This document shows, piece after piece, positions 10,653 to 47,400 of a DNA stretch of 64,000 bases. Below the pieces are notes generated by a model. That model saw only the letters and a list, made by a program, of their open reading frames with translations, was not told the origin of the DNA and made no database searches. Both the position numbers and the translations under genes were made by a program. Where the stretch lies: assembly GCA_030248295.1 (NCBI GenBank), contig JASANH010001727.1, forward strand, positions 659,453 to 723,452. The letters run 5' to 3'. The stretch is from Mesodorylaimus sp. YZB2_4 (taxonomy: Eukaryota; Nematoda; Enoplea; Dorylaimida; Dorylaimidae). The stretch's first letter is position 1; each line of letters opens with the position of its first letter.

Positions 10653-13466
<2,814 letters not shown>

Positions 13467-17565: not shown

Positions 17566-17736
17566 CGGCTCGTGGCCTGCTGGGTTAGGCGTCTGCCTCT
17601 CACGCCAAGTGCGCAGTTACGGGCGAGTGTTTGACTGGCGGGCCGGTAAATCATTTCGTGTAAAATGTGTCCCTTCACCCTCGAGTGCGCACTAGCGTTT
17701 GGGGATGTGGTGAAACATTAACATGAACATGAAGAT
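17566..17736 (+). mobile_element. tRNA-derived SINE, full-length copy
   Basis: The head is tRNA-like: A-box region GTGGCCTGCTGGGTTAGGCG, an anticodon-loop-like CTCTCAC, and B-box-like GAGTGTTTGACTGGC. A body with CATTTCGTGTAAAATGTGTCCC follows, then the tail CCCTCGAGTGCGCACTAGCG leading into short ATGAAC-type repeats (AACATTAACATGAACATG). Two further copies lie at 34455-34572 and 53603-53726 (minus). The CTC anticodon-loop context resembles tRNA-Glu, but the anticodon stem is degraded, so the parent tRNA is uncertain. Confidence 0.8.
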
Positions 17737-17739
17737 GCG

Positions 17740-18849
17740 ATTGTGTATCACCTGGCCGAGTGTCCAGCAGTAAATGTTCCAACAATTAAGGCAATGTGCC
17801 TGATAAACAATTGAAGCCTCAGCAGAAAACAGAAACACATGGGGCTGGTTTGTGGTGATGAGTCATTAGAATATACTGTAGAATGTCCAGATGTGACCAC
17901 TCATCTCGTCGCAAGGCGGTGTGTCCGCTCGAATTAATTGTGGACTTGGGCACCACTTGGCACATAGCCCCACTTAGGACAATGTCTACAGCGGTGAACA
18001 CAACAGGGTTGATTTATCACGGAGTACAAAAATGATCACTTGCCGATTAAAGAATGGGCTCACCTGATCAAGGCAGCCTTATTGCCAATAAACTCGGTTC
18101 TGATCTCTTTGGCAGCGATGGCTGCGCAACCCACCAGCTGTGGCAGACCGTCTGCTAACTCAAAAGCTAGCGCAATTGTGGGATTACATGGAGGTGACAG
18201 GCCCTCGCACCACAAATCATCTGAGGGATACCACAACCGCCTTAATCATGATTACGGGAGCCGCACCAGCTCTCTATGCCGAACGGGTAAAGAGCGAATG
18301 GGACGATCTACTGCATCAATATCTGCGCCAAATCAAGTTCTCATTAGGAACGCTGTGAGTGCACTCGAACATATGAATGTCATTTCAGCATTCCGACTGT
18401 GAGATTTCAGGGTCATGGTAAGGGAATAAGCGAGATTATCAGAGGCACATTTAAAGGAAAGTGCATTAAGTGGCGGTATCCTTACGGGATGGGTGCTCTT
18501 ATCGTTGGACGGCGAAGTGAGGCGGTCAGACACCCTATCAGGTCATTGGAGGGATGACGGCATATTCTCAACATCGCTTATAGTACATTGGACGGCCAAG
18601 TGACACGGTTGGCCAAGTGAGACGGGCGGTCACCTGAGACAGTCGGCCAGGCGAGCCAGACCCCATTATGCAGGTACTACAGTTCTTGGCCGCGAATCGT
18701 CGCAAGGATAGTCTAGTGTGCCCTCATTTTTTAGATTCATTACAGTATCTACAGGAAGGGTACACATACAGTATCTAGGAGAAGAGAATGTGGTATTGAC
18801 AGTTTATCGTAGACCACCGCACGTCAGGCACCAGCACCAGGCTGACTTG
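17740..18849. other. No gene recognised; one plausible orphan exon
   Basis: At about 18100-18355 on the plus strand an open frame reads a helical, charged segment (LTQKLAQLWDYMEVTGPRTT, SEWDDLLHQYLRQIKFS) ending at a perfect donor-like GTGAGT. I could not assign a family. From 18585 to 18660 there is a degenerate repeat of GGCCAAGTGACACGG. The remainder is featureless. Confidence 0.3.
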
Positions 18850-19241
18850 TGAAATCCTTGGCTCGTCCTAGGGCTATCTAGGACTGACCAGAGGATGGCC
18901 CAAGTCAGGAACAGTACCACGCAGTCCACGGACACTTATTAATACAGTTTATTAGCCACCACACCAATAAGGCCGTGTAGACTCACAATTCGGGGAGCAG
19001 CCGCACGTGTCGGCCGTCAAAGGGGTTCTGACGGGCCTGAGCCCGAAGTGCTCACAGAGCAGTTCAGATCAGGTGATCCAGACTAGTTCTCAACCGATGT
19101 CTGCAATCAGACCAGACACTCGACCTCAACCTCGCTCTCGGTCTCGTGCTGGCCCTGACATAGGAGAGGCGGACCAGTTCCCTGAACCAGTACACACATA
19201 GGCCGGAGGACATAACACATGCCTAGTCCATGCCTATTACA
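18850..19241 (-). repeat. 3' LTR (392 bp)
   Basis: Sense strand begins TGTAATAGGCATGG and ends GGATTTCA. A sense AATAAA (18948-18953) offers a polyadenylation signal. It differs from the 5' LTR at four sites by eye (A/G, A/G, A/C, A/G). Confidence 0.97.
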
Positions 19242-19255
19242 TTCCTCCCCTCCTT
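19242..19255 (-). other. Polypurine tract of the LTR element
   Basis: Sense AAGGAGGGGAGGAA lies directly against the 3' LTR start. This is the expected position and composition of the plus-strand DNA primer. Confidence 0.8.
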
Positions 19256-20041
19256 AAAAGAAGCGTGACCCCACGCTTCCAGTGAAAAGTAGGGCACCTT
19301 CGATTAAGGGATCCCGGAGAAAAGTCCAGGTCGTCAGGCTAAGAAAGCAGGGATCAGAAGCTGAACCAGTGGGAGAAAGGTCCAGCAAAAGGCGAGACCA
19401 GGGCGTAACCGGAGTCAGTGGAGACCAAAATGGATAGTCCACTGCTGTCGTCCAGCGAGTCCCCTAGGTGACACATACATAAGCGACTCCCCGGACGGCC
19501 CTATGGTCTACCGAGGCGCACACCAAAGTACCTGGGTTCAGCAATGCTCAACACTACACGTCAACCCAGCCCCAATCACAACATCACAGAACATCACACG
19601 TTCTTCATGGCTGGGTGACGGCTGCTGAAAGGCAAGAGGAGCACCACCCAGGCATACTGCCAGAGAATCATCTAGCAATGGGAGACCCCGTGACCTACGC
19701 ACTACCCTGAAGCCCGAAAAGGGGTCAAGGATCGTGCACCGACACAACCAGGGATCGCCCAGAATGTGCGCAAACTCGGTGTGTGCAGAGACCAGAACAG
19801 TCCAGACTCTGCAACCCAGGCCAGATGACGAAAGACTGGGCGGACAAATAATGCAACAAACCTCAGCGAATCGAAAATAATCCCCACAAAATCTACCACA
19901 CGGCTGAGGCTGGGCCAGAAATAGTCTAGCCCATAAAGAAAACAGGACCGAAAAGAGTTCAGTCCGTAAAATACCCACGCAACACTCACACACAGGGTTA
20001 ATCCAATTAGCCACAACCCTGTTAGCCCAACTCACGACGAA

Positions 20042-20885
20042 TCATTCCACCATCGGCGCCGGGCAAGGAATCGCCTCGCCGGCCACCGAGCCGCCCCCCC
20101 CCCGCCGGGCAAGGAATCGCCTCGCCGGCCACCGGAGCCGCGACGAACTCCTCGCCATCAGCCGACATTTGAACGTCCGAAACCAAAGATTCGTCGTTAC
20201 AAAACGGGAAACCACCACTGGCCGGATCCACTCGTTGAACGAAGCAAACAGCTGACGCGACGGCCAATCCATGATTGTCCACGGCTGGTCCAAGGGGACG
20301 CCAGAGATGTCGAAAGCCGGTCGGAAAGCCGTGGGATAGTGCGGAAAATAGAAGAAGGGTTGTCGAATTACCCAACGCTTGACTCCACCGTCACCATGGA
20401 CCACAACCGCTGCCGGACAGTCGAACAATAGCTCGTAAACGTATTGAGACAAATCTTGGCCGAAACACAATGGGACCATGAACGTGTTTCGCCATTGCAA
20501 CGGAGCGACCATCGGAAACCCGAAGGGAACACCGTTCAGGTCCGCAAACCAAACCAGAGGCCACACGGCGGTCTAGTTCGGCGACTTCGCATGAACCATC
20601 TCGGATTTTAGCATCCAAGTCACGTAAACCGTTTGCAGTGTCGACGGGCAGACCCAAATATGGATCGGGAACTGCCGTATCCGAGGTACTGGCCACCGAA
20701 GCCGTAACGGGTTCAGTGCCAGGAGCCGAAATCGATGCCGAGAAAATGGGAGCACTGGCGACCGAAGCCATTGCGGGTTCAGTGCCAGGTCCCGTCGTGT
20801 CCATGACGAATGAAGAAACGTCAGCCACCGCAGCCTGTGCTGAATCGGTGCCGGACGCCGCTGACGAGATCGAAGATTGATCCAT
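20042..20885 (-). CDS. Possible third ORF of the LTR element, frame interrupted
   Basis: Between pol and the 3' LTR the sense strand has two overlapping open frames. One, from an ATG at 20885, is Ser/Thr/Ala/Pro-rich with an internal repeat (PGTEPAMASVAS, PGTEPVTASVAS). The other is open from 20572 down to 20042 and is rich in Trp, Phe and Pro. Moving from the first to the second needs a +1 shift near 20572. Neither has an obvious transmembrane segment or envelope motif. It might be an accessory protein, a decayed envelope-like gene or captured sequence. Near its end a 40-46 bp segment is duplicated in tandem with a C run between the copies (20057-20142). Confidence 0.4.
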
Positions 20886-21334
20886 CTCGATACCCGTAAC
20901 CAAAATAATACCCGAAAAATTAATTACCTGAGTACTAAAGCACTTGACCCGTACCAGTAATACTAATACCAAAATTGAGCAATTCCGATTTGGAATGCAC
21001 TGAGATTCGACGAAATAAAAATTTGAACACCGGTTCTAAAGCTCGGGATTAAAGCTCAAGAAACCGGGTCGAAAACCACCAAAACGAAAATTAGTACCAA
21101 AACTATTAGTAAGGCACTAATGGAGACCAGAAAAAACAAAAAAACCCAACACCAAACCGAAAAACCACCGATCGTATCGAAAAATCAAACGAAAATAATT
21201 CGTCGCGTCACGCGAGCCCACCTTAGGAAAATTTTCCAGGTGGCGCACATGACGAGACCATCTTGACATAGACCTACTGAGCAACGTGTTCCACCACGAA
21301 GATGCTCAGGCGCGGGAAGTTCAAATTCCGAAAG

Positions 21335-24300
21335 TCACATATCGCAGTCCAGATGCACACAGGGTGCATAGGGGCAGCGATACACTGAAGTGAATCGGAC
21401 CGGGGCTGTACCATCGTCAAGATTGGCATCTGGCAAAGTGCCAGCCAATCGCATATCTTCTATCGCACAAATCGCCTGGTGGATCGCTTCCTTCAAACGG
21501 CCCACCTTACCTTTGTGCTTCTGCGGAATAAAATTCTTCAATTTCAGCTTGGCCTGGAAGAACTGCTGATGCGTGGCAAAATCGCGTATCGCTGTTTCCC
21601 GCAGAACCGCATACTTCCCGTCGTCGTTCAGGAACTGCACCCGATATACCTGTTCCAGGTTGACCTTGGACATGGAAGACGCATGTGCCTTCTTGATCGG
21701 TGCATCGTCGAGGTCACCAGGGCACGACTCCGGGCCCAGACCTGTAATACGGCCTGGCCACCACGGAAAACCCATGACCTTCGCCCAAACGTATTGACCA
21801 ACGTGGAAAGATTGTGTGGCAGGCGGGACATTCGTCGTCGAGCTTGTATTCGAGGTAGGCTTGTCCTGTAATGGAATAGGCTGATCAGCATTATCTGCAC
21901 TACCCTCCACCTGCTCTGAAAGACCCCTGTCCTTCGTCGGTATGCGCTCTGCGTCAGCGGACACATCGTCCACTGCTGCAGCTCGTTCCAGGCGTTCCGT
22001 CGTCTTGACCAGATGCTGTGGGTGCCATCGTTCGATCGGCTTCGACGGATCCTGCAAATTGCGGATCAACACGCCCGACTCACCCATCAGCTTCACCACT
22101 TCGTATGGACCTAACCAGTGAAAACTCAATTTCCTAGAAAGGCCAGGTTTGAAGTGATAGTTCGGCTTACGAACCCAATCTCCAACTTTCAACGACAGAG
22201 GACGTGCCGTTTTATCATACTGCAATTTCTGACGAAACTGATTGAGTTCGATGTTCTGGAGTACCTTCGCATCGATACTTGCCATGCGGATCCGCAAGTG
22301 ATCCACATACTCAGTGCCTTGTACCGATTCAGTACGAGGTTGAGCGAGCAAAGTATCCAATGCCGTGGGCGGGTCCCTTCCATGCGACATGAGATACGGG
22401 GAAACACCCGTCGTCGTGTGCGGTGTATGCCGATAATGCATCATTATCAGCTGCAGTCGGTTATCCCAATCATGTTGATTAGGATGCACGTAGCATGCCA
22501 TGGAGAACCCGATTAGCTTGTTCAAATTTTCGACATTACCATTGCATTGCGGGTGATAGGGTGTTGTCGAGACTTTCTTCACTCCCAGTTCCTTGCAAAG
22601 TCGTAAAACGAGCTTCGACAAGAAATTAGAGCCCCGATCGCTAAGGAGCACCCGAGGACATCCGTGTCGAGTGATCCACCCATCGACGAGCAAGCGAGCA
22701 ATGCGTGCTGCCTTTTGATCGGGCACCGCATATGCCTCAGCCCACTTGGTGAATATGCACATAATCACAACCACGAACCTGTTACCATGATCCGAGGTTG
22801 GAAATGGACCTTGTACGTCGATGGCAATCGTGTCGAAGGGCGCTGTGCGTTTAATGATCTCCAAAGGCGGTCGTTCGTATCGATGAGGTGCCTTGAAACG
22901 AGCACACGTATTGCACTCGGCACACCAGGCCCTGAGATCGCGTCGCATCGTGGACCAGAAATACTTGATCCTCAGCGCAGAGAACAGTCGATCGAAACCA
23001 GGGTGGTTCGCGTCCTTATGGGCAGCATCGAAAATGAATCGACGCAGCTCTGACGGGACCACCACTCTGTCGTGAAGATACGTTCCTTCGACCAACCTGC
23101 TCTCGTGATGCCATCTGTGCATAAGAATGCCCTCGTCGTCCAGCAAATAGCTCTTCGCCAAGTTCGCGATTCTGGGAGGCTGAGTATAATCACCCTGCAA
23201 AAATGCAATGATACGTCCCATTTCGTCATCATCCCGCTGCATCTTCTTCAGAAGGTCCCGGGATGGTGCATCAGGAAATGCACCGGCTGCTATTTTAGCC
23301 ATGTCGATCCCCAACTCGTCCGATTCCAATTGCGTTGCTGGATCCAATTCGTCCCGCAACTCCAAATCGCATTCAGAGTCGGAGTCGTCAGAGAGATTGA
23401 CATCTGGTTGCACTTCCAATTCCAATGTGGCATCTGTATCCGGAGACCCTACTGTAGTCCAGACAGATGCTCCAACCACATGTTTCGCTTCTGCAATCGC
23501 GACGGCACATTCATTGAACATGCCCTCATATCCATCTTCATTACACTCCTCAGAGATTGAGTCTAAGGGACCAGACGATGCCAGAGCAACAAAGTGGTCT
23601 AGCCAATTGACTGGGAGAGGCACTGGTAGGACCTCACGCACTGGAGCCAACGGGATATCGTCGATAACTGCGCTTGGAGCCTCCACCACAGACTCATCCT
23701 CGCTTCCCGTATCCGTTGCTGCCGTGATGCAGATCATGGGTACATCGGGTCCCGTGACAGGAGCTTGCTCACCGTCACCCTCGGTCGCTTCGCCACCGTC
23801 GGAGATACCAGAATCCGACTCGATCGTGACTGCTTGCGGCAATAAGGCGATCAATGCGGAAGGGCCACACGTCGAACACCGTTTGGTGGGTGACAATGCC
23901 GAGAACAGCATAGCATCGGCTGCTGGCATGCGCGATAGAAAATCGGCGGCGCCATTGTCACATCCTTTCGCGTGTGTAATGCTGAAAGTATAATCTTGCA
24001 ATTGCATAAGCCACTTACCGCGACGTCCTTCCAAGTCCTTCTCCTTGTACCAGTACAAGAGAGGCTTGTGATCCGTGTACACTTCGAAGGACCGTCCGTA
24101 TAAATAATGTCGATATTGTTTGATCGCCCAATGAATAGCAAGGCACTCCCGATCGATCGTCGGGTACCTCTGCTCGGCTGGTGACAGAGTTCGCGAAATG
24201 AACCCAATAGCCCATGCGTGTTTCGGCTTCTTCGGATCGTACTGCTCCAGGACAGCACCTATGGCAAAACTACTTGCGTCAGTGCTGAGTCTGAAAGGCA

Positions 24301-26491
24301 GTGAGAAGTCAACATATCGCATGACTGGATACGTTACCAGTGCTTCTCGCAGATCTTCGAATTCTTTTTGATGTGTATCCGTCCATTCCCATCGCACGTT
24401 CTTCTTCAAGAGTTCTCGCAGAGCCTTGGTTCTACGAGCAAACCCCTCGACGAACGATCGATAGTAACTGGCCAACCCCATAAATTTGTGGAGTTGGTCT
24501 GTGTTCGTCGGAATTGGGAAATTTCGGATTTTGTCCCGCTTATCATCTGTGATCGAAACACCCTCGGCACTAATGCAATGGCCCAAGTACTCGACTCGGT
24601 CCATGCCAATAGCGCATTTGGATGGTTCAAGCATCAGATGTGCCTCTCGCAATCGTCCAAATACTGTGTTCAGGTGCTCGACATGTTCGTCCAGTGTCTT
24701 GCTGAACACGATGATATCGTCCAGATAGCATAGGGTGTAAATCCACAGCAATCCGGACAATGTCATCTCCATGCACCTTTGGAACTCCGCAGGTGCGTTG
24801 CAGAGTCCAAATGGCATGTTGACGTACTCCCAGAAGCCGAAGGGGCAAACGAATGCCGTTTTTTCAGCTGTTTCTGGGTCCAAGGGTATCTGACTATACC
24901 CCGACGTCATGTCGAACACTGAAAAATACTTCGACCCACGCAGTGCATCCAACATTTCATGAATGTTGGGCAGTGTGTGGGCGTCCTTCTTCGTTACCTT
25001 ATTGATGGCACGGAAGTCGACGCACATCCTCCAATCGCCCGTTTTCTTGCGCACCAATACGATCGGCGATGCCCATGGAGAACGTGAGGGTCGAATCCAC
25101 CCCAGGCGCAATAACTTTGCGACTTCCTCCTGGATGATTGGCTTCTGACTTTCGGCTAGTCGTCGAGGACGGGCCATGATTGGTTTTGCGTCCCCGGTAT
25201 CGATGCGATGTTGAGCCAGATGTGTGCCACCAATTTCTTCCTTTTTCAGGGCGAAGACGTCCGAATTACATGCGACCACCGCACGGACTAGCTGTTCGTC
25301 TCGCTCTGAAAGATTGCCATTTCCGAATTTGAGCTTACCCAGTAGTTCTTTCTGACGTTTCGGATCATGCCGCTCGATCGGAACTCGGTGTAGGCGATTG
25401 GGCTTCGGCCGCCCATCTTTCTTCCACTCCGTGTGCAGCCACAGTTCTTCATGCCTCACGAATTCGACCTCAGGCCTGATTGGCGTGTATGAACCAGGCG
25501 CCAACTCCGCGGGTTGATCCGAAATAACCGCCTCAATCCTCCAAAACGGAGGCGCTTTCTTGTCAAACGGAAATGGACTTGGTACTTCCCATTGTAGACC
25601 GGATTTCCCTGGATCCGTCCTCCGATTGTAACGGAATGTTACTCGGAACGGTTCCAACTCAGAGAGAAATCCCACATTCATATTTCTCGGCAGAATCTGA
25701 GCCACTTCTGCCAGATTCACTAAAGGGACCAGAAATTGTCCGGTCCTTTTATCAGGTCGTATCACAGTCCTGGGCATCATGACTGGTAGTTCCATAGGCA
25801 TCGGGTCGAAGAGCACATCGCGTCCCCGAAATCGACGAGGTGCGACGGCTGTGGTGATCACATGCCGACGAGCTCCAACCTGAGTGGCGTTAGCCATTCG
25901 AGCGGATGCTTGGAATAAATCTTGAGGCGTACGATGCACTGGTACGTCGACACCGGCCAACGCACCAGCCGTGTACCGAACTCGTTCTTTGTCGGTATCG
26001 TATTGCCATCGATGCAGACCCGTGTTGAAATCTTCTCCCAGTAGCACGGAATATTTTCCATACTCTGAAACGTAGAATGGAACATTAGGTGCAACTTTAC
26101 CACCGATTTTGATATCCAAACGAGCAATGCCAATAATTGGCATCGGTTTACCATCCCCATCAACGCAATGATCGATGTCTGGGGGCTCCAGTTTGGACCG
26201 ATCGTATCGTTTTCGTTTTATCCCTTTCATTGTTTCCTCTGAAATCAGGGTAATACTTGCACAGCTGTCCACATACGCACGAGTCCGGTGACGGCCAATC
26301 GAGACGTCAATCTGCGGGAGAGACAGACGTCCCGTTACCATCGTTCGCCCATCGCTCGCCATGCATACACCATACGGCCCGTAGCCTGCCTCTGCAAAAG
26401 ATAGTTTTACAGTGGGTACGTTCTGGGGGGAAGGGAATAAATAGTGGATAGGCGGCACACTCAGTGGTGTACCGCCTTCCTCACGTTTTTT
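21335..26491 (-). CDS. pol: Pol polyprotein: protease, RT, RNase H, integrase, PWWP
   Basis: Open from 26554, expressed by -1 frameshift at 26485-26491; residue numbers count from 26554. Aspartic protease at about 70-185 with active-site VDSCAS (Asp 96). RT at about 465-660: LPNIHEMLDALRGSKYFSVFDM, FGLCNAPAEFQRCM, catalytic YLDD 610-613. RNase H at about 750-875: STDAS (Asp 759), RECLAIHWA (Glu 803), YTDHKPL (Asp 828), GAADFLSR (Asp 871). Acidic linker at about 880-1090. Integrase: HKDANHPG..CAECNTC zinc site at 1179-1217; catalytic Asp 1246, Asp 1306, Glu 1342. GPY/F-like WLGPYEVVKL follows. The C-terminus is a PWWP domain at about 1583-1675. Pol makes and inserts the cDNA copy. No stop or frameshift in 1,739 codons. 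Confidence 0.97.
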   Translation of the reverse strand, partial: KKREEGGTPLSVPPIHYLFPSPQNVPTVKLSFAEAGYGPYGVCMASDGRTMVTGRLSLPQIDVSIGRHRTRAYVDSCASITLISEETMKGIKRKRYDRSKLEPPDIDHCVDGDGKPMPIIGIARLDIKIGGKVAPNVPFYVSEYGKYSVLLGEDFNTGLHRWQYDTDKERVRYTAGALAGVDVPVHRTPQDLFQASARMANATQVGARRHVITTAVAPRRFRGRDVLFDPMPMELPVMMPRTVIRPDKRTGQFLVPLVNLAEVAQILPRNMNVGFLSELEPFRVTFRYNRRTDPGKSGLQWEVPSPFPFDKKAPPFWRIEAVISDQPAELAPGSYTPIRPEVEFVRHEELWLHTEWKKDGRPKPNRLHRVPIERHDPKRQKELLGKLKFGNGNLSERDEQLVRAVVACNSDVFALKKEEIGGTHLAQHRIDTGDAKPIMARPRRLAESQKPIIQEEVAKLLRLGWIRPSRSPWASPIVLVRKKTGDWRMCVDFRAINKVTKKDAHTLPNIHEMLDALRGSKYFSVFDMTSGYSQIPLDPETAEKTAFVCPFGFWEYVNMPFGLCNAPAEFQRCMEMTLSGLLWIYTLCYLDDIIVFSKTLDEHVEHLNTVFGRLREAHLMLEPSKCAIGMDRVEYLGHCISAEGVSITDDKRDKIRNFPIPTNTDQLHKFMGLASYYRSFVEGFARRTKALRELLKKNVRWEWTDTHQKEFEDLREALVTYPVMRYVDFSLPFRLSTDASSFAIGAVLEQYDPKKPKHAWAIGFISRTLSPAEQRYPTIDRECLAIHWAIKQYRHYLYGRSFEVYTDHKPLLYWYKEKDLEGRRGKWLMQLQDYTFSITHAKGCDNGAADFLSRMPAADAMLFSALSPTKRCSTCGPSALIALLPQAVTIESDSGISDGGEATEGDGEQAPVTGPDVPMICITAATDTGSEDESVVEAPSAVIDDIPLAPVREVLPVPLPVNWLDHFVALASSGPLDSISEECNEDGYEGMFNECAVAIAEAKHVVGASVWTTVGSPDTDATLELEVQPDVNLSDDSDSECDLELRDELDPATQLESDELGIDMAKIAAGAFPDAPSRDLLKKMQRDDDEMGRIIAFLQGDYTQPPRIANLAKSYLLDDEGILMHRWHHESRLVEGTYLHDRVVVPSELRRFIFDAAHKDANHPGFDRLFSALRIKYFWSTMRRDLRAWCAECNTCARFKAPHRYERPPLEIIKRTAPFDTIAIDVQGPFPTSDHGNRFVVVIMCIFTKWAEAYAVPDQKAARIARLLVDGWITRHGCPRVLLSDRGSNFLSKLVLRLCKELGVKKVSTTPYHPQCNGNVENLNKLIGFSMACYVHPNQHDWDNRLQLIMMHYRHTPHTTTGVSPYLMSHGRDPPTALDTLLAQPRTESVQGTEYVDHLRIRMASIDAKVLQNIELNQFRQKLQYDKTARPLSLKVGDWVRKPNYHFKPGLSRKLSFHWLGPYEVVKLMGESGVLIRNLQDPSKPIERWHPQHLVKTTERLERAAAVDDVSADAERIPTKDRGLSEQVEGSADNADQPIPLQDKPTSNTSSTTNVPPATQSFHVGQYVWAKVMGFPWWPGRITGLGPESCPGDLDDAPIKKAHASSMSKVNLEQVYRVQFLNDDGKYAVLRETAIRDFATHQQFFQAKLKLKNFIPQKHKGKVGRLKEAIHQAICAIEDMRLAGTLPDANLDDGTAPVRFTSVYRCPYAPCVHLDCDM
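21530..21808 (-). other. PWWP domain at the integrase C-terminus
   Basis: The segment begins FHVGQYVWAKVMGFPWWPGR, with the defining PWWP box, then VYRVQFLNDDGKYAVL, the second half of the beta-barrel, and a helical tail. PWWP domains of LEDGF, DNMT3, BRPF1 and MSH6 bind H3K36-methylated nucleosomes through a Phe/Trp cage formed by this box. The position after the GPY/F region is where chromoviruses carry a chromodomain. Insertion targeting is inferred. Confidence 0.9.
26451..26491 (-). promoter_or_regulatory. Programmed -1 ribosomal frameshift signal, gag-pol
   Basis: Sense A AAA AAC (26485-26491) is in the correct 0-frame phase (tcA AAA AAC). After 8 nt comes a 10-bp hairpin: GGCGGTACAC, loop CACTGA, GTGTGCCGCC (26451-26476), with one G.U pair. 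The gag TGA stop sits inside the hairpin loop. A -1 slip here enters exactly the pol frame (KKREEGGTPLSV). Heptamer, spacer and stem match known -1 frameshift signals. Confidence 0.88.
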
Positions 26492-29400
26492 GAATCGGCT
26501 TTTCGTTCGACTTGTTCTTCCTCCTTCTCCTCCACTGGCTGTGACTTCTTCCAATGGTACGGACTTTCATCTCGGATTCTGGCGCTACACTGCATCAAGG
26601 AGTGTGACCTATCCCCACACTGACCACACGGAGAGGAGCAGTCCCGGGCATAGTGACCACTGCCCTTGCAGTTAAAGCAAACTACCTTACCGCTCTCTCT
26701 CCTGCTGTCGGACGAATACCTATCGCTGTCCTGCGCCCGTTTGTTCCAGCGAGGTGCTGGGGAATTAGGTCGGGAATCGCTGAACGATGTAGATCGGTCT
26801 CGACGATTGGACTGCCGATGTTCACTTTGGCGCGTCTTCTGCTGCCTCGAATACCGTTGCTTTTGGTCGTCGTCGCTCGATTGGTACCTCGTACTGTACC
26901 GTCCACGCCACTGGCCGCGTGAGCGCATCTGGCCACCCGAATCGAATTTCGGTCGTGACGTGGTACGATTGAAACGAGCGTACCCTTGATCGCCGTATGG
27001 ATTGGGGCGATTCTGATTCGGTCGATTTTTGTTGCCGAATCGCGACTTCGTGAATTGAACAGCAGGCATCTCATCGCTGCCTCCATCGTTCGTCGTACCT
27101 GACCCATCGTCAGCATCGAAGAATTCGCCCTCCGAACTTGATGCATCTCCGTACCTCGCACTCGCCATCATCGCCTTAGGCGTCGTACCCCTGTCAACAA
27201 GGTCAGATTTCATAAAGCTCTCTAACTCACAAGCTAGATGAACTCTTCGTTCCAAACCTGGCGGAGACTGTTCCACCAAGATTTGCTGCATCAATCGTTT
27301 CTTCAGAGGTTGCGTCAGGCCCACTGTGAACTGGAACGAGAGTTCTTCCTTCAATCGTTCCGTGTCAGATTCTGGATACAATTGGGTACCCAGATCACGC
27401 AACCGTTCCATGTATTTGATGACCGGTTCGCTCGCCTTCTGCACGCAGCTTTGGAACCTCATTCGGCGCTGCTCTGCGGATAATTGGCGATCGTAAATAT
27501 CGGCCATCGCTTTCCTTGCTTGTTCGTACGTAGATTTCTGTTCGGGCGACAATAATGCCCATGTCGTCGCCGCTGCTTCTTTCATGCAACTACCAAAGTA
27601 TGTTAGTTTAGTAGTTGCGTCAGCCGCTGCCAGTGCACTTTCGAACTGGCGTAACCAAACTCGAAATTCGCCATCCATGCCGCCCCGAAAAGGGTCGAGA
27701 CGTTGCATGGGAGGAAGTGGTAACATTGGTTTTCGCGGAGCCCATTGACGAGGTCCTCGGGGCGGATATCGTCCGCCTCCTCGTCCTCCACGTCCATCGT
27801 CGCCGTTATCCGATTCACTGGATCCGTTTCCATCGTCATCAACCAGCGGGTCACCTCGTTGACCTCCACGGTGATACTGTCTGCCGCTCGTTCGCTGGGG
27901 AGGGTAGAGATGATGTACCGTCGGTACCTGTCCCACGTGGTCGTTGACTGGCGCTGATTGACGGCCAGGTGCGTTCGCTGCCAAGTTGACCCAATGCGGG
28001 TTCCCTTGGGCGTCGTACAGCACTGTTGGTTGCTGTTGCTGTTGTGCCGACGCCTCTGAGCACCTGACGGTACCCAGGCCTGTCGACGCACGGGGGGCCA
28101 CATTCACGGTTGTCGTTGTCGTAGCAGCCTGTTGCCTCGATGTACCGATCGTATTCGCATCACGCAAGTTTGGCGGAATCGCGAATGGAAACTTGATCGG
28201 CGGATAATCTGGAAAACCAGTTTTAGGGTTAATCTGAACCTTACCTTCAGATACCAACCGCAAACGATACTGTTCCATCGCATCATGGGTACGTTGATAA
28301 TGCTTATGGAGCTCTTCCTGGTACCCTTCTGGATCGTCTCGTCGTTTCCGCAGCATTGCATCGCGTTCTTGTTGCGTGAAGAAATCGAGGAACCAGTGGT
28401 CCCACTCCGTCAGGGCGGGATACACCGGCCGTGGCTGCCGCTGTTGTTCTTTCGATTCCTGTGGCTTCATCAGATCCGCGAATCGTTGTTCCATTCGCTG
28501 GATCGATGCATTGATCTCAGCTTCCTCCAAATCTCTATTCGTCTGCGTGAACGGCGACAGTGGCCGTTCTTGGTCACCGGCCAATTCGTCATTGCCTTGA
28601 CCATTGCCACTTGCCTGTCCTTCTTTATTCGATTCCAGTGACTTCCGGATATTGGCGGCTTCATGCACCATTTCTGATAATTCTTCTTGCAGGTTGCCCA
28701 GTGGGTTGAGACCAGACACCTGCCAATTCGTTGCGGTTAGGGTGCCATTGGCGCCCAACCTTGTCGAAGTCGAAGCTTGGTCGCTTGCTGGTGAAACATG
28801 CAAGCCCACCTGCAGTCGTTGATCGTCACCAGGACCAGTAGATTGACCAGTCCTGGCCGGTGTAGTGTAGGTCAACTGGTATGCGCGTTCCGTCCACCAT
28901 TGCTGGATCGGATCCCAAATATACGCTCCAGTGACGAAAGCCAGCTGCAATGGCAAATACACGTGACAACGAGCCAAATCAAAATTACCTGACTGGGTGA
29001 AATATTCGTTCGCTGCCTCCTGGAGCCAGTCCTTCGTTGGTACCAGCAGTTCTTCGGCTTTGGTCGTCTTGGCTGGTGCTCGACCATTGGTCAGCCAGTA
29101 ATAGGCGATCGCGTGCTGGTACAGTTCACGCCGCAGGATATCGAGCAATTCGTATTTGTTCGTTTTCGTCCAGCTAGCCCGTGGCCAAACCCTGGACCAG
29201 CCCAGACACTCGATCCAATGCCGGATGGTAGCGATATCCTTGCACTGTAAGATTACTTTTCCCGTTAGACCATCAGTTCCTACGGGAGGGGCGTTCTGAC
29301 TGTCCGTCCTCATACCCGATGAGGAGGTACCAGCCGCTTGGTCTTCCACGATCGTCGCCACTGACTGTGTGCGTTCGACAACCATAGTCGGCACCGTGTT

Positions 29401-29865
29401 CGGTCTGGTGTCTTCTGTCTGATCCGCTTCCCCGGGCAATGATCTAGTACCTTTGGGGCGAGGACCCGTTGCTAAATCCCGAACCCAAGACGGTGTACTT
29501 ACTACAGTCGAAGCAACCGCTGTCGTTATCGCCGGGACGATCGTTGTTGTGGCTCTGGCAGCCTCCGTCGAAATGGCTGGCGGGCGCTGATCTGAGGCAC
29601 CCGCTCTGTTGATCGATGCCATCGTCTCACTCGTTCCACCCAGGCCGAGACGTTGTAAATGGTCTGTCTCGGTCGTCCGTTGTTCCTTCGCTCGTTGTTG
29701 TGCCATTGTTGCTTGCACAGGCAATTTCGAATGACCAGACGGAGGAGCAAGCTCGTCCATCACTCGGTCCGCACCTCGGGTAGAAGGATTGTCCACCCTT
29801 TGGCGTGTATTGTAATAATGCTTCGGTGGATGATCTCCACCTTGATTCTTCTTCGTCGGATCCAT
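26461..29865 (-). CDS. gag: Gag polyprotein with two CCHC zinc knuckles
   Basis: 1,134 residues, long for a Ty3/gypsy Gag. The first 650 or so are a Thr/Ala/Gln-rich leader with a folded-looking block (IECLGWSRVWPRASWTKTNK to WDPIQQWWTERAYQ). Near 670-850 is a retrotransposon capsid domain: FRGGMDGEFRVWLRQFESAL, ATTWALLSPEQKSTYEQAR, LSFQFTVGLTQPLKKRLMQQ. A basic Arg/Ser/Gln-rich linker leads to two perfect CX2CX4HX4C knuckles at about 1063-1076 (CFNCKGSGHYARDC) and 1080-1093 (CGQCGDRSHSLMQC), which bind genomic RNA. The ORF overlaps pol by 94 nt. The start ATG at 29865 lies 343 nt from the LTR. Confidence 0.93.
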   Translation of the reverse strand: MDPTKKNQGGDHPPKHYYNTRQRVDNPSTRGADRVMDELAPPSGHSKLPVQATMAQQRAKEQRTTETDHLQRLGLGGTSETMASINRAGASDQRPPAISTEAARATTTIVPAITTAVASTVVSTPSWVRDLATGPRPKGTRSLPGEADQTEDTRPNTVPTMVVERTQSVATIVEDQAAGTSSSGMRTDSQNAPPVGTDGLTGKVILQCKDIATIRHWIECLGWSRVWPRASWTKTNKYELLDILRRELYQHAIAYYWLTNGRAPAKTTKAEELLVPTKDWLQEAANEYFTQSGNFDLARCHVYLPLQLAFVTGAYIWDPIQQWWTERAYQLTYTTPARTGQSTGPGDDQRLQVGLHVSPASDQASTSTRLGANGTLTATNWQVSGLNPLGNLQEELSEMVHEAANIRKSLESNKEGQASGNGQGNDELAGDQERPLSPFTQTNRDLEEAEINASIQRMEQRFADLMKPQESKEQQRQPRPVYPALTEWDHWFLDFFTQQERDAMLRKRRDDPEGYQEELHKHYQRTHDAMEQYRLRLVSEGKVQINPKTGFPDYPPIKFPFAIPPNLRDANTIGTSRQQAATTTTTVNVAPRASTGLGTVRCSEASAQQQQQPTVLYDAQGNPHWVNLAANAPGRQSAPVNDHVGQVPTVHHLYPPQRTSGRQYHRGGQRGDPLVDDDGNGSSESDNGDDGRGGRGGGRYPPRGPRQWAPRKPMLPLPPMQRLDPFRGGMDGEFRVWLRQFESALAAADATTKLTYFGSCMKEAAATTWALLSPEQKSTYEQARKAMADIYDRQLSAEQRRMRFQSCVQKASEPVIKYMERLRDLGTQLYPESDTERLKEELSFQFTVGLTQPLKKRLMQQILVEQSPPGLERRVHLACELESFMKSDLVDRGTTPKAMMASARYGDASSSEGEFFDADDGSGTTNDGGSDEMPAVQFTKSRFGNKNRPNQNRPNPYGDQGYARFNRTTSRPKFDSGGQMRSRGQWRGRYSTRYQSSDDDQKQRYSRQQKTRQSEHRQSNRRDRSTSFSDSRPNSPAPRWNKRAQDSDRYSSDSRRESGKVVCFNCKGSGHYARDCSSPCGQCGDRSHSLMQCSARIRDESPYHWKKSQPVEEKEEEQVERKADSKNVRKAVHH

Positions 29866-30192
29866 GCCGATCGAATTTTACGCGTCCGTTCACTAGACAC
29901 GTCGAAAACAAAAGAATAACACGCGTGCGAGGGCTCACCTCAGCCTAACACGTGATGCTTGGCAACTCGCCAATACAAACAATACTCAAATGCACTCGAC
30001 GAGAATAATACTCGACCGAGCCTAAAACCAACTCGTGGCGATGTCCAAAAAGAGTTTAGACTTTGCACGTGCACGTCGAACGTCGACGGAATAATAATAT
30101 CGCCGGAAAATCACTATCAAGCAGTTCGGCGCTTCCCAAACCGACACGCTTGACCACTCCTGAATTGCGTTGGTAAGCTAACCCAAACGTGG

Positions 30193-30207
30193 CTGTTCGC
30201 GACGCCA
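30193..30207 (-). other. Primer-binding site of the LTR element
   Basis: Sense TGGCGTCGCGAACAG begins one base after the 5' LTR. It would pair with the 3' end of a tRNA ending CTGTTCGCGACGCCA. I did not identify the tRNA. Confidence 0.75.
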
Positions 30208-30208
30208 G

Positions 30209-30600
30209 TGAAATCCTTGGCTCGTCCTAGGGCTATCTAGGGCTGACCAGAGGATGGCCCAAGTCAGGAACAGTACCACGCAGTCCACGGACACTTATTG
30301 ATACAGTTTATTAGCCACCACACCAATAAGGCCGTGTAGACTCACAATTCGGGGAGCAGCCGCACGTGTCGGCCGTCAAAGGGGTTCTGACGGGCCTGAG
30401 CCCGAAGTGCTCACAGAGCAGTTCAGATCAGGTGATCCAGACTAGTTCTCAACCGATGTCTGCAATCAGACCAGCCACTCGACCTCAACCTCGCTCTCGG
30501 TCTCGTGCTGGCCCTGACATAGGAGAGGCGGACCGGTTCCCTGAACCAGTACACACATAGGCCGGAGGACATAACACATGCCTAGTCCATGCCTATTACA
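30209..30600 (-). repeat. 5' LTR (392 bp)
   Basis: Same length and TG..CA ends as the 3' LTR. Sense AATAAA at 30307-30312. No TATA box stands out, so the promoter may be TATA-less. Confidence 0.97.
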
Positions 30601-31433
30601 CGAGGTCACGTCGATGCGAGAAGAGTAACATGCAATAAACAAGTGTTCTTCGCATTGGAATCAAAAACTTGGCAAGTAAACGGCAGAAAATTCAGGTTAT
30701 AATTAAGGATGAAGGATGCGCCGACAAAATGTTTTCAAATGTTATGCCGTCAATGACAGCGTGCAAATGTTAGAAGAAAAAATGTTGCAAAATATTTGAA
30801 AAAACTCAATGTTAATTTTTTACTAGCGCCTTTTTAAAAAAACTAAAGCATGTACGTATTCTACAGGAAAGCTGAAATCGTGTTGGAAAGAAAGGACTTT
30901 TTTTAGTCAAGCTAATGTCACAGTGAGGGATTCAGGGGAAGATTAAGAGGAGGAAATTCAGGGGGGATTAACGGCCACGAAGAATGCCAACTGGGCGTGG
31001 AATGGCGTGCCCCACAAGCCCACGCACCCGGGGAGCACGCACGCTAGATCTGTCCGTTCATAATCATGGACGCCCAAACGAATGCCCAGTTTGTCCAGAC
31101 CGCTTATGAGGAAGTGAACAGCCACTCAAAACGAGCCAGCTCCGCCAAGAGCGATCAGAATGAAACATAGCGAGTGCAGGGATTTATTGGCCGCAATGAC
31201 AACCACTGTGATCAGACTGATCACAGACTGATCATTGCGCCTGATATGCCAATAACGATTACGCCAGTGATTAATATGGCGAAATAAGGTCCACTCGTTC
31301 CATATATATCGGTAAAGACGCATGACAACTGCATCAGTCCGAAGCTGGAAGCTGGAAGAGATCAAATAATCTTCAAGACTATTCACTCCATCGAAAATTA
31401 GCAAAGCAACTTCACCGGGATATTAACTAGGCA
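30601..31433. other. No intact gene; possible decayed 5' part of the LINE
   Basis: G-rich and A-rich patches at 30930-30970. From about 31100 the sequence may be decayed LINE endonuclease or linker (short readable pieces such as RKLAKQLHRDIN just before an in-frame stop near 31433), but no endonuclease motif is preserved. Confidence 0.4.
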
Positions 31434-33355
31434 AAAGCGACGTACATTGAGGGTAAATTTAGTAATGCTCACTCTCCGTCGGAATTCTGGGCTGTTATGC
31501 GGCGTTTCAACGATCAAAGTAGGCAAATTCCAGTCTTGACAGATCAGGATGGCACTGAACACTTCACGCCTTGGCAAAAACCAGATGCCCTGCAGAATTC
31601 ATTTTTAAGAAACTTCAACGAACTGGCCTACGACTGTTACATTCCTCCAGCACCTGACAACGACGACTTTGGGGACTACCACATCTCAGAAAAATTTGTC
31701 CAGAAAGCTCTGTGTGGGCTGCGGGCCCGCTCAGCGCCTGGGATTGACGGTTTTCTTCCATGTATTCTTAAATCTGTGGCGCAGACACTATCGCCATCAT
31801 TGACAGCTCTATTCAATCGCTCTATCGACGAGGAATGTTTCCCTGAGCAGTGGAAGGTTGCCTTAGTGTCCCCGATTCCAAAAACTGGAGACGCCTCAAA
31901 TGTAGCAAACTACCGGCCCATCTCGTTATTGCCGATATTTTCAAAAATTTTGGAAAAGCATATGCAGCATCTGATATACCCGTGGCTGAAACTCTCTCAA
32001 AATCAGAATGGGTTTCGATCGAGATACTCGACCGATACTGCACTGATTAAACTATCCGAGTCTATTCACAATTGGCTCAACTCTCCCTCTTATCGGCAAG
32101 TTGGTGGAATTTTTTTCGATATAACAAAAGCATTTGACCGTGTACCGCACGCAAAGCTACTAATGACGCTTGCAAAGTATCACAAGTTGCCAACCAAACT
32201 GACTCGATGGCTACATTCATACTTATCAGGACGGTCCCAAATGACTGTCGTCGAAGATGCTCGATCAATTCAAAGGCCAGTTTTATCGGGGGTTCCTCAG
32301 GGCTCTGTTTTGGCCCCAACGCTATTTATTGCTTTTATAAACCCACTCCTGGATGAATTTGAACGACGGTTTCCTAAACTGCTTTGCCAGGCACATGCCG
32401 ATGACATTGTTTTACTGGCCCCTGCAGCAACCGAAAGAGAGCTTCAATTCTCTATTCAGCAAGCAGTTGATTTTATTGACGACTGGGTGTCATCAATGGG
32501 CTTGGCGTTCAATCAAGAGAAAACTCAGGCGTGCGTATTTCATTTTTCTCGCCAAACCAAGGAGCCTCCCGTCATCTCGTTACGTCAGCAGCAGCTCAAG
32601 TTCGGTTATTCCGTGAAATACCTCGTTATTCTCTCGTTTAAAGTTATTCTCTCCTCTAATATGCAGTTTAACGAGCATTGCCAAACTATTGCCAGAAAAG
32701 CGAGAACTATGATGGGGTGCACCAGACGTCGATTTGGGAAATTGGCAAAGCGTGTGCTAGAAACTGTCTACTTGCAATGCGTATTGCCAGCCCTGGACTA
32801 TGGATGCACATTCTGGGCACCTATTCAGCAAATATCGATCCACGATTTAGAGAGGGCGCAAAAATTTGCTGCCTGAGTGATTTTAAATAACTGGACGATT
32901 TCATATGATGATGCTTTATCAGCCTTGCGCTTATCCACGCTACAGACTCGTCGAAGTTACTTCAAAGCGGTTTTATTTTACAAGATTTACAACAGCTATA
33001 TGGCTTATTCGAGTCGATATTTTCAGCATCAAATGGATATAGGGCTGCGCAGGAGCTCCAGGACCCTAGTCGAGCCACACCATCTGGTTGTAACGAATCA
33101 TAGGACTTCCTCCTTCACTCAGTCATTTGAACATAGTGCCCTTGTTCTATGGAACTCCTTGCCAAATGACATCGTGGTGAAAGGGCTTACAGCTTTTAAA
33201 ACAACGTTGCGTGAATTCTTGTTTTCTAAGTTTTTCAGAGCGCTTATATTCTTGTGTAGCTCGTATGTGCGTATATATATACATTGTGTGCTGCGCCCTT
33301 GAGTGCATTTTAGCGATGCTTGGCGACAGTAAAATGACATGACATGACATGACAT
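31434..33355 (+). pseudogene. 5'-truncated non-LTR retrotransposon (LINE), reverse transcriptase
   Basis: The frame 31497-32876 and the following 32877-33302 are one frame split by a single TGA at 32874-32876. RT blocks are in order: APGIDGFLPCILK, FPEQWKVALVSPIPKTGD, NYRPISLLPIFSKILEK, QNGFRSRYSTDTAL, DITKAFDRVPH, VLSGVPQGSVLAPTLFIAFI, the catalytic box HADD (usually Y/FADD), and a C-terminal SALVLWNSLPNDIV block. Coding extends a little upstream of 31497 to a stop at about 31433. The apurinic endonuclease is gone. The 3' end is CCCTTGAGTGC...GTAAAATGACATGACATGACATGAC, a short pentamer tail of the CR1/L2/Jockey kind. Inactive. Confidence 0.93.
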
Positions 33356-34196: not shown

Positions 34197-34964
34197 TTAA
34201 AATAATTCACTTTTCATAAAATCACGTTTCAGTTCTTTCAATAGGCGGATCGGTTGCTTGCCGGGATTGAACGATTCGTGTCGGCCGTATCCGCGATCAG
34301 TCAGGTACGATGCTATGCTGTACAGTTCCCTGGGTCTCGGCGTTTCAGCTTGTTCGTCGGTGGCTAGGAACAGTAGAACATCCACGATGGGTGTGAAAGC
34401 TCGAACGGGGTCTCCCCGGGTGGGATCATCCGTAGCGTTCGAGGAGGTTCGAGGAAGAGTGTTCGACTCGCGGGCCGTTAAATCATTTCGTGTAAAATGT
34501 GTCCCCTCACCCTCGAGTGCGCATAAGCGTTTGGCGATGTGGTAAAACATGAACATGAACATGAACATGGACATGAGAAAGATACCATTATCCAACAAAA
34601 CGATCCCAGCCTTTATGAACAGTTTGGCGATTAAAATCATTTTCTTTCTGATTTGCGTAGGAAGACTGACCATGGAAGGAATAGCGTTTTCCATTAGATC
34701 CATGTAGGGCGACTTTGTAGATGACGTTGATGATGACGATGCTACAGGAGTGGTCGCCAATGTTTTGACGCTGCCAGCCGTCGCCCTCGCCAGGCTAGGA
34801 CTCGTTGGTTTCATTTTCCTGCCAGCCCACCGCGGGCTGCTCATATCATCTAGGCTGCTATGGTTGGTCGTTTTGCCCAATCCGTGCGGCCTCGCATTTC
34901 CGAGGTCGCTTCTTTTGTAGTTGCTGATTGCGTTAGCGGCGGTCGTGAGCATATCAAACTCCTT
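34197..34964 (-). CDS. Unidentified coding segment split by a SINE
   Basis: Open through 259 codons on the minus strand to a TAA at 34197. The first part (MLTTAANAISNYKRSDLGN, then Ser/Thr/Pro-rich, then LPTQIRKKMILIAKLFIKAG) and last part (FTPIVDVLLFLATDEQAE, RELYSIASYLTDRGYGRHES) look like real protein. The middle (Met/Phe repeats to RNDLTARE) is the translated antisense of the SINE at 34455-34572. A donor-like ATG|GTATCT at about 34588 suggests the SINE sits in an intron. It directly follows the packaging-ATPase remnant on the same strand and may belong to the same viral-like element. I do not recognise the family. Confidence 0.45.
   Translation of the reverse strand, partial: KEFDMLTTAANAISNYKRSDLGNARPHGLGKTTNHSSLDDMSSPRWAGRKMKPTSPSLARATAGSVKTLATTPVASSSSTSSTKSPYMDLMENAIPSMVSLPTQIRKKMILIAKLFIKAGIVLLDNGIFLMSMFMFMFMFYHIAKRLCALEGEGTHFTRNDLTARESNTLPRTSSNATDDPTRGDPVRAFTPIVDVLLFLATDEQAETPRPRELYSIASYLTDRGYGRHESFNPGKQPIRLLKELKRDFMKSELF
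34455..34572 (+). mobile_element. tRNA-derived SINE, 5'-truncated copy
   Basis: Begins at the B box (GAGTGTTCGACTCGCGGG), continues with CATTTCGTGTAAAATGTGTCCCC and CCCTCGAGTGCGCATAAGCGTTTGGCGATGTGGTAAAAC, and ends in about four ATGAAC hexamers. The body is about 90% like 17640-17736 by eye. The B box is better preserved than in that copy. Confidence 0.8.
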
Positions 34965-44420: not shown

Positions 44421-47400
44421 TCAAAATAGCATCTTATTCTTGCTACTCAGCTTGGCATGCGCAAATTCGAAAAGGTGTGCGATGTCGAATAAGCTCAGAA
44501 CTGACATTCCTAGGAATAGGCCTGTGATTGATGATATGTCCCACAGGAGATCAAAAATCTGAAGCAGAAAAGTGGAATTTTTAAAACACTATATATACGT
44601 TTTTACTGTTCATATGCAGCTTACAGAATATATCGGCGCCTCGCTATATTCTATGGTTATCAAGTCTCCAAAATACACGTCGATCACCGACAGATCGTTC
44701 CTCCTGAAAATTTCGAATTCGAAAATTCAGGAAATGGACTTACAGTTAATCTACTTGATTGAAGTATTTGAGGTGCCCATGAAACACATCTTCTTGCTGA
44801 CATCCTGAAAAGTTAAAAAACTTATAATAAAGTCATAATTTTCCGAGAATGATTATGCGACGCACATAAGTGTCTGACCATTTGGTATTGCTGATGGTTG
44901 TTTCGTAGATGACAGCTCTAGAATGTGCACGAGTGATTTTGGCGCTGAAATATATTCACATATTACTAGGTGGGAAAATCTTACTTGCATTCATGAGGGC
45001 ATTGGCATTCAGCTTTTGCAACAGCGAAATACGCATTCACACACTCTCCTAAATGGTTACTCTATTTAAAACGGTCACTCCAGTTTACAGAAACCTAAAG
45101 GCTTACTTTTTCTCACGTCGCAATATCCTACTGTACTATTCGGAGGGAGTGGAATCCGTGGATCACCGCATTTACATCGTTTGATAACGCTTGCTTGGTA
45201 ACAGCTTCTGAGGCATCCCTGAAATACAAGTCTCTGGACCTGCTTATGCACAGGTTGATGGAAATTGAAACCCACTTCTGTAGAGTAAGACGTTGTATTG
45301 TAGTTGTAATTCGGAACTTCCGACGGCAGGGTTGCGCATGGCCGGAAGGAGGAGGGCAGGGCATCGCTGTGAATCTTTAAAAAATTAAATCAGTTTGCAA
45401 AGAGGCTTCGCAGTGTGAGATTCGCCGTAGCTAAGCAGAGATGAAGGTTTGTGTTTGCGGGGCCGTCATGATGGAAATGCGAGAAATTTATTTATACTTG
45501 AGGTGTGGTGGGTTTTCAAAAGAGATGCAGTTGACCAAGTGTGAAGGGAAGAAGAGAATTGTGACTCCCACAATCATGCAAACACACTGAGTCTGAGGTG
45601 GCCTTTTTACTCTCATACGTAGCTTTTGCGGTCGCTAGTTCAAGCTGCCTTATGAAAGATTCTTGCTCTTTGTCTGATAAAGACCATAAATACTTATGAC
45701 ACTTACCTTTTTGATTGAAACAAATGTTTTGTATCCGCTTGGCACATTAAACCCAAGAACGTCTGGGAATATAGGCTGATTTTGATCATGTATTAAGACT
45801 CGAACGCCAGCAGATTGCACAAGAGCCATGTATTCATCAACATTTACAACATAGCCAACCGACAAGCCTAGGTAAATGGGGCGTAATAAACAATTTACTG
45901 GCGTAGGTATTATTACCTCTGCCTTCACCAGCTTGTGTAGCCACTGGTTTCTCACCATTAGCATTGAAGGTGTAGCAGTTTCCAAAGTTAGGGTCGACAT
46001 GTAGTTTAAAATCTCTGATAAGAGAAGCGAAATTAGCATTTGTTAGTCTGCCCTAAAGCTGTACCTTTACTTATACTCAACGCTACACAAAATAGTTCCC
46101 TCCAGTGAAATCAATAATGGTACTATAAATAACTTACCCATGTGAGCAAGACATGCCATTATATCTACACATCGTTACGGTCTCTGCAATGTTGTAGCCA
46201 GCGTTCACAGCCGCCTCCAAAGGAAGAGAAGAGACAGTGTAGGCAAGCATGTCTTGTGCAGTTGCGACCAAAGCGCCTGTGTCTGATTTTATCTGCAGAG
46301 CAATGATCTTTGTGTAAGCTAGGTGACAATTATCAATACTAAGCGAGCGAGGTAATAAGTTTAAAAAGTAGCTTACACTTGGATCATCAAGGGTTTCAGT
46401 GATTGTCCTCGCTATGGCTGCTGCTTTTGCTAGCTCATCCTCCGGCAAGACCTGTGCTGGATTCGTACTATTAAATTTGTCCGTCTCAAGAAATGCTGGC
46501 TTTGTCTTCAACGTTTGTAAGACCGTAACTGTTGAAATATCGATTGTCGCTACGGTCGCAGAAGCGAATTGTCTCCCATCTAGCTTTCCGAGCGAACTGG
46601 TTGAATATATTATCGTCTTATCAGTGGGTCCAGAAGAAGCTGTCGGTACAAGTCTGTCTTTGGAGAGTGTACTCATTGGTGCGTTCGGTGGTATATGAAT
46701 TGGAGTTGGAATTGTATTGTCTTCATTCTGTATGATAATATAGGCTGGAGGAGGCGAGGACTCAGTCGACAAAGGATCGCTAGGAGCCGATTTTAAAAGA
46801 CCAGTATTCGGTTGACCATAAAAACCTGACCCCTTCTGTGTATTGTTTTGGTCAGGTGCAATAATAGGGGCACGCGAGGCAACGGAGTCAGTCGACAAAG
46901 AGTAGCTATGAGCCAATGTAAAAAGATCAATATTCGGTGGAGCAATGGAACCTGACGCTGCCTCTGTAACATTCAACAAGTTTGATAGTGATGAGGAGAT
47001 GAATAATGGAAACGTGTTATTGAGTGGTGTAGGTGCAACAGGATTCATTGGCAAAAATGGTCCATCAGTTGAAAGTATAGAAGAAGTGCTTGTATGGTTT
47101 GCAGATTGAATATCAGTAAAGGGATCCGTTTGAGATATTAACTCTGTGAAATGAGTGTGGGACTGTATTTTGTTGGAGGAGCTTGAAACCTGGGCTGCTT
47201 TAATGCTCGTAAGAGATAGTGATTCCGACGACGGCATACTTGGTGAGCTGCTTGATGTGCGACTTGAGGTTGGAGCTAGATATGATGTTTCTGAATCAGA
47301 CAAGGGCTGGTCCGAAATTGAAAACCCCATGTCTAACGAGGGACTAAGTTCAGCTTCTGACTCAATCGATGAGAGTGAAGTTGAGGCAGAGATGTCTGAA

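Follow-up and report, generated by a model that had tools for sequence, protein, structure and literature searches.

The window, the whole stretch of 64,000 nucleotides analyzed here, comes from contig JASANH010001727.1 of Mesodorylaimus sp. and carries an LTR element at 18849-30600 on the minus strand (Table 1). The two LTRs differ by three transitions and one transversion, with zero gaps. A tRNA scan of the window found none to match the probable primer binding site. The gag frame, in which a PNMA match (0.0041) stayed below the cut-off, overlaps pol in a different frame. The first start-like codon of pol is TTG, and pol probably starts by frameshift from gag. The RT, RNase H, zinc finger, and integrase core models all passed their Pfam cut-offs. 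A second protease model scored below its cut-off like the first (20.4 versus 24.3 bits), and the protease motif read directly in pol is D-S-C instead of D-S/T-G. The CAEC of the integrase zinc finger was also read directly, and the GPY/F module is separated from the PWWP domain by roughly 60 linker residues. Protease, reverse transcriptase (RT), RNase H, and integrase follow one another in this order in pol (the protease at its usual place, with models scoring below cut-off), and the element also has an LTR pair, a polypurine tract, and a gag with a zinc knuckle. These features mark it as an LTR retrotransposon of the Ty3/gypsy order.

Table 1. Features of the Ty3/gypsy element in the window, listed from its 5' to its 3' end
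Feature	Position in window	Strand	Evidence
5' LTR, 393 bp	30208..30600	-	389 of 393 sites the same as in the 3' LTR
Probable primer binding site, starting with TGG	30191..30207	-	Directly after the 5' LTR; read directly
gag ORF, 1134 aa, with CCHC zinc knuckle	26461..29865	-	PF00098, 5.1e-6, over the cut-off
pol ORF, 1739 aa	21335..26554	-	Open for 1739 codons
Protease-like region, active-site motif D-S-C	26027..26311	-	PF13975, 25.9 bits against a cut-off of 28.2
Reverse transcriptase (RVT_1), YLDD	24578..25054	-	Pfam, 1.6e-34
RNase H (PF17919 and PF17917)	23990..24385	-	Pfam, 8.1e-34 and 6.1e-35
Integrase zinc finger H2C2	22889..23059	-	Pfam, 2.1e-15
Integrase core rve (D,D35E)	22550..22843	-	Pfam, 2e-10; D-35-E read directly
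GPY/F module, GPYEV at residue 1482	22001..22207	-	Read directly; limits approximate
PWWP domain, residues 1586-1695	21470..21799	-	PF00855, E = 1.6e-10, 41.8 bits against a cut-off of 25.6
Possible third ORF, 174 aa, between pol and 3' LTR	20042..20566	-	Codon comparison of copies
Polypurine tract AAGGAGGGGAGGAA (element's strand)	19242..19255	-	Precedes the 3' LTR
3' LTR, 393 bp	18849..19241	-	Compared with the 5' LTR

No target-site duplication was seen around the window copy, whose flanks differ. Recombination or the assembly may be the cause; the duplication is a feature of single copies more than of a family. Because of the missing duplication and the D-S-C protease motif, the window copy may be inactive. 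The gap between pol and the 3' LTR measures 2.1 kb and contains open frames, including one at 20391-20972 on the minus strand. The 174-aa frame is listed as a possible third ORF because pN/pS was 0.22-0.33 in four of the six comparable copies (L008 left out); the values in the other two were 1.30 and 1.94, both copies losing many codons to gaps. One stop was present in four of the six, and a Pfam scan of the frame gave no match.

The domain scan of the surroundings covered 10 of the 189 flanking open frames. Roughly 0.8 kb separate the 5' LTR from a LINE-type reverse transcriptase ORF (31431-32873, plus strand; RVT_1, 2e-33), and an Elp3-like Radical_SAM_C exon (12292-12870, plus strand) has its end some 6 kb away from the element. 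Farther out are a Thr/Ser-rich ORF of 1548 aa (46134-50780, minus strand) and an amiloride-sensitive channel exon (51053-51748, minus strand). The element is flanked on both sides by a 113-bp direct repeat (17625-17737 and 34457-34569, 91% identical), which looks like a short interspersed repeat. COX1-like matches, which are probable mitochondrial insertions, occur in the assembly at C73:253316-254668 and in 14 other places, many of them broken; the best copy (C73:253316) fits mitochondrial code 5, with AGA/AGG as Ser, TGA as Trp, and AAA as Lys.

The preliminary description of this DNA had claimed that a Ty3/gypsy pol here ends in a PWWP domain, and the profile search of the pol C-terminus bore this out, with PF00855 well over its curated cut-off. 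The domain had been placed at 21530-21808 (residues 1583-1675); it is found there, but its extent had been drawn too short, as the domain continues for about 60 bases. When a 130-aa PWWP piece was scanned alone against PF00855, the E value was 1.2e-12, and all 17 family tails matched PF00855 alone at E ≤ 1 (best 3.9e-17). At E ≤ 1, a phmmer search of PDB sequences with the window tail listed 57 different sequences. DNMT3B (6r3e; 1.2e-6, the sum of two domains) came first, and NSD3 (1.2e-4, whole domain) and NSD2 were among the further top matches. A profile built from the 17 tails matched 73 PDB sequences at E ≤ 1e-3; among the best 60 of these, MSH6 was the best single whole domain (2.1e-15), followed by HDGF, NSD3, LEDGF, and DNMT3. 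In a profile-profile comparison, the tails of families A-C matched those of families D-G with a probability of 97.5 (E 8.6e-12). Two single-sequence AlphaFold runs of the window tail, made without an alignment, had mean pLDDT values of 35.4 and 34.3. The Pfam scan of the window pol found no chromodomain (PF00385). At the level of sequence comparison, it is thus confirmed that the integrase of the window element ends in a real PWWP domain.

To place this domain in its genome, the window's own assembly (145 Mb, 1067 contigs) was searched. The 221-residue tail had 70 matching places. Fifteen of them, each on a different contig and the window among them, matched the tail in its full length at 92-100% identity. 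From 863 candidates, of which 118 were scored, the integrase core of the window gave at least 120 matches, and 84 of the 120 listed were followed on their own strand by a PWWP match. The distance was 102-531 bp in 82 of these 84; one of the others lay 765 bp from its PWWP match (its other half at 259 bp) and another at 2831 bp. The domain is not missing from the other family members either, an absence that the preliminary description had named as refuting its claim: all 16 integrase matches with 96-100% identity over the whole query had a PWWP match 256 bp downstream, including C68 with a shortened match of 27.4 bits. No PWWP match was listed for shorter integrase pieces of the family (e.g. 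C814, C41, C553, and C778).

PF00855 itself had at least 146 matches in the genome (150 scored of 173 candidates), 83 of them paired with an integrase match. Among the 58 of the 63 unpaired matches that were read, 54 resembled families A-J at E 1e-17 or better, three of which (L101, L111, and L112) are the references G4, G6, and G5 themselves. Two of the 58 represent a further tail type K and are their own references (K1 L125, K2 L140), and L028 (C1), an unpaired match read in addition to the 58, showed GPY/F plus PWWP. Altogether, 138 of the 146 matches were located in retroelement tails or resembled them (four of the 146 left out). The last two of the 58, L139 and L143, look like host genes in their sequence, as just 23-26 residues were alike (E 1.3e-7 and 3.7e-10); L143 would pass the looser rule of the sorting script. 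A survey with the zinc finger PF17921 (H2C2; 150 scored of 691 candidates), which is less tied to the window than the integrase-core survey, found PWWP within 2.5 kb downstream of 49 of the 150 matches and a chromodomain within 3 kb of none of the 150. The genome also holds gypsy elements of another kind: the open frames of L081/L084, L085, and L086, read to the end, had no PWWP, and the printed part of the interrupted L082, L083, and L088 was likewise without it. L075 ends at a contig end.

The PWWP-tailed elements of this genome form at least ten families (A-J), the window belonging to family A, and a single-copy capture of the domain was rejected. In all ten families, the predicted PWWP domain sits where chromoviruses have their chromodomain. 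Integrase identity among A, B, and C was 77-85%, D, E, and F make up a second group, family G comprises several subfamilies, and H, I, and J stand on the side of A-C. In a family D member, L091 (23-6337), gag and pol share one frame of 2104 aa, in contrast to the two overlapping frames of family A. An integrase tree of 41 rows, from which 14 references had been dropped (long branches among them), recovered a clade of A-C with H, I, and J (97/94), a D-F clade (100/99), and a G clade (100/100), and uniting all 19 PWWP rows cost 0.64 log-likelihood units (AU p 0.29). Three changes of the PWWP state were needed in the integrase tree with 55 rows and two in that with 41 rows, and PWWP-less families stood between the PWWP groups with weak support.

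The RT comparison was made without named reference gypsy clades. In its tree of 26 rows, the window and family D were sisters (96/90) and lay outside a seven-row group (100/99) containing all four chromodomain rows. Placing the PWWP pair inside this group was rejected (p 4e-4), and a position as its sister was compatible with the tree data (p 0.18). A single RT clade of PWWP and the four chromodomain rows had p 3.6e-102, and the four rows alone, p 7.5e-5; the latter were rejected as a clade because three other references nest among them. From the integrase and RT trees together, one gain with later losses is the simplest reading. Several independent gains of PWWP may have taken place, as far as the trees can tell. 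The two type K tails, K1 (L125, C108) and K2 (L140, C216), carry PWWP in frames of about 600 aa. In K2, a stretch resembling an integrase tail precedes the PWWP domain, and the domain may for this reason have arisen in elements more than once; about 860 bases read upstream in K1 had no clear stretch of this kind. The reading as a chromovirus with a diverged chromodomain was unsupported, given a pol free of PF00385, no chromodomain near any of the 150 zinc finger matches, and an RT outside the chromodomain group.

To assess selection on the tail, codons were compared within and between families. Seven copies of the family A tail had dN/dS values of 0.02-0.19 against the window, at pS 0.05-0.14, and the family A PWWP tail is under purifying selection. 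Between families, dN/dS of the PWWP piece was 0.13-0.20 in 7 of the 14 pairs, some of them near saturation; dS of the piece was saturated in the other seven. The tail evolves faster than the integrase, with A-B identities of 50% and 85%, respectively. In family I, the copies L072, L073, and L074 have nearly the same integrase, and the tail of L073 is of very different age. The dS between L072 and L073 was 0.15 in the integrase versus 1.39 in the PWWP piece, which points to an exchange of tails by recombination.

The methyl-lysine cage of PSIP1/LEDGF consists of M15, Y18, W21, and F44, as given in a published study, where W21 and F44 also belong to the core, M15A and Y18A lose specificity, and the PWWP domain binds an H3K36me3 peptide very weakly (KD 17 mM), DNA contacts being needed (PMC3663649). 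Alignment by eye put V1593, F1596, W1599, and F1641 of the window at these four positions. F1596, W1599, and F1641 fit the cage, and V1593 stands at the position of M15. The F/W/F set was unchanged in all eight printed copies of family A, among them that of the window, and family B too keeps it. Of the 17 tails, again aligned by eye, 15 have W at the W21 position (G1 has L and J has A), 14 have F at the F44 position (C and G5 have L and K2 has Y), and 6 have M at the M15 position. At the Y18 position, F or Y was confined to four of the 17 tails (A, B, C, and J), and the residues seen there include F, Y, I, V, L, H, Q, and N. In the 17-tail alignment, W8 and P18 were invariant, and A9 and A108 nearly so. 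The window tail has a longer stretch ahead of the third strand than the tails of families D-J. Judged from these residues, the cage is likely intact in A and B, partial in C to I except G1, and W-less in G1 and J.

We put the probability that the PWWP tail tethers the intasome to H3K36-methylated nucleosomes at roughly 55%. Once the DNA copy has been made, two parts of the integrase's PWWP domain, its methyl-lysine pocket and a surface that binds DNA, would contact nucleosomes. They would probably do so where the bodies of transcribed genes carry H3K36me2/3, and the bound domain would then hold the intasome at such chromatin. In families with a degraded cage, the domain may still grip nucleosomal DNA with less or no preference for the mark, and PWWP domains can also bind DNA without mark reading. 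The PWWP match over the cut-off in pol, its recurrence downstream of the integrase, the purifying selection, the F/W/F cage, and an RT outside the chromodomain group would argue for tethering. The uneven retention of the cage among families, the V in place of M15, the faster divergence of the tail than of the integrase, the possible inactivity of the window copy, and the unrejected sister position of the PWWP elements to the chromodomain group would argue against it. The host has candidate parts of an H3K36 methyltransferase, a premise of tethering: a candidate SRI domain at two places 45 bp apart, one of them containing TAG, and two candidate AWS matches, all of them single short pieces, unassembled. 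SRI and AWS are domains expected of SETD2/NSD-type enzymes. For the LEDGF PWWP domain, binding to H3K36me3 and a role as a tether of HIV integrase are described in the available part of a published account (PMC8149907).

The drift of the cage positions across families, set beside the invariant W8 and P18 and the nearly invariant A9 and A108, would suit a tail that serves as a general nucleosome or DNA anchor (in intasome assembly, nuclear retention, or target capture) and is blind to H3K36 methylation. The weak peptide binding of the PSIP1 domain and its need for DNA contacts, in the study cited above (PMC3663649), fit such an anchor as well. We regard it as unlikely, while giving it serious weight, as F/W/F is kept in families A and B without change in the family A copies printed, and the W21 position in 15 of the 17 family pieces. 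A methyl-lysine reader could also be retained for another ligand, be it a non-histone protein or a different mark such as H4K20me or H3K79me. It would then direct the element to other chromatin, perhaps away from genes. Not every PWWP domain is an H3K36 reader, and the variety at the Y18 position would suit a range of ligands; the best whole-domain PDB matches of the tail profile, however, include MSH6, HDGF, NSD, and DNMT3, whose PWWP domains are H3K36me readers, and we think this possibility rather improbable.

A captured host PWWP exon that persists without a role in integration would explain why the tail evolves faster than the integrase and why several gypsy families of the same genome do without it. 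The low dN/dS of the tail, within family A and in half of the family pairs, makes this hard to hold, and the same position of the domain in at least ten divergent families also speaks against it, leaving the reading very improbable. We give practically no credence to a host PWWP gene wrongly fused to pol in assembly or annotation. Four of the 20 element regions fetched do run into a contig end (C166, C53, C432, and C702), but the near-identical whole tails lie on 15 contigs and the same order recurs in many different families; with so many copies and families in agreement, artefact or chance was rejected. The proposed tether to H3K36-methylated nucleosomes is the reading that we prefer.

As in chromoviruses, the window element has a reader domain of the same superfamily in the same place, after GPY/F at the integrase C-terminus. 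Unlike them, it carries a PWWP domain instead of a chromodomain, in the tree of 26 rows its RT branches apart from the chromodomain group, and the expected mark would be H3K36me where theirs is H3K9me. Some chromovirus groups keep the aromatic residues of the cage and others lose them, a further likeness: in the accessible part of one study, chromodomain group I keeps Y-W-Y and group II is usually without the first and third residues (PMC3605345). HIV-1 integrase with LEDGF/p75 (PSIP1) offers a second parallel, in that a PWWP domain is linked to an integrase and a connection to H3K36me chromatin is proposed, with the difference that HIV-1 borrows its PWWP from a host protein, by way of the integrase-binding domain, whereas here it lies within pol. 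MSH6, NSD2/NSD3, HDGF, and DNMT3 contain the same domain by sequence, but are host chromatin proteins without an integrase. The PWWP-less gypsy elements L081/L084, L085, and L086 share the integrase core and a GPY/F-like module with the window element; unlike in the latter, their open frame stops after the module or continues without PWWP.

Searches beyond this genome were made with the tail and the RT. Against 5.8 billion proteins, the family A tail gave no hits at E ≤ 1e-3 (214 candidates) and the family D tail none at E ≤ 10 (490 candidates); these searches depend on shared exact words and similar length, and zero hits do not equal absence. At E ≤ 1e-20, the window RT matched 7519 proteins and is related to the RTs of gypsy-type polyproteins. 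Identity among the 120 listed was 33-47%, and they carry RVT_1 and RNase H; inspection of these 120 by eye found PF00855 in none and PF00385 in nine. The viral contigs searched for relatives gave no match. In the full-text literature searched, outside which lie Repbase, preprints, and most subscription journals, no description of PWWP in the pol of an LTR retrotransposon was found. The nearest by wording, in the portions available, were a paper on chromo-like domains with a chromodomain Ty3 element in Anabaena (PMC5906684) and a Magnaporthe study in which the PWWP belongs to a host gene (PMC3978060). A Ty3/gypsy integrase with a chromatin reader is known, and a PWWP domain as the reader may be new.

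We tentatively suggest, at somewhat less than even odds, that these families represent an old and diversified Ty3/gypsy lineage, defined by its PWWP domain and parallel to the chromoviruses, which would target H3K36-methylated active genes in cis, its families partitioning chromatin through diverged cages. Retroelements place their insertions by a borrowed host tether, as HIV does with LEDGF, or by a reader of their own, such as the chromodomain. A lineage with a built-in PWWP domain would combine in one protein what HIV and LEDGF do as two. The genome offers a natural experiment, as its gypsy families range from those whose cage is likely intact, through those with a partial or a W-less cage, to those with no PWWP at all, and a comparison of their insertion sites would test whether the reader decides where an element lands.
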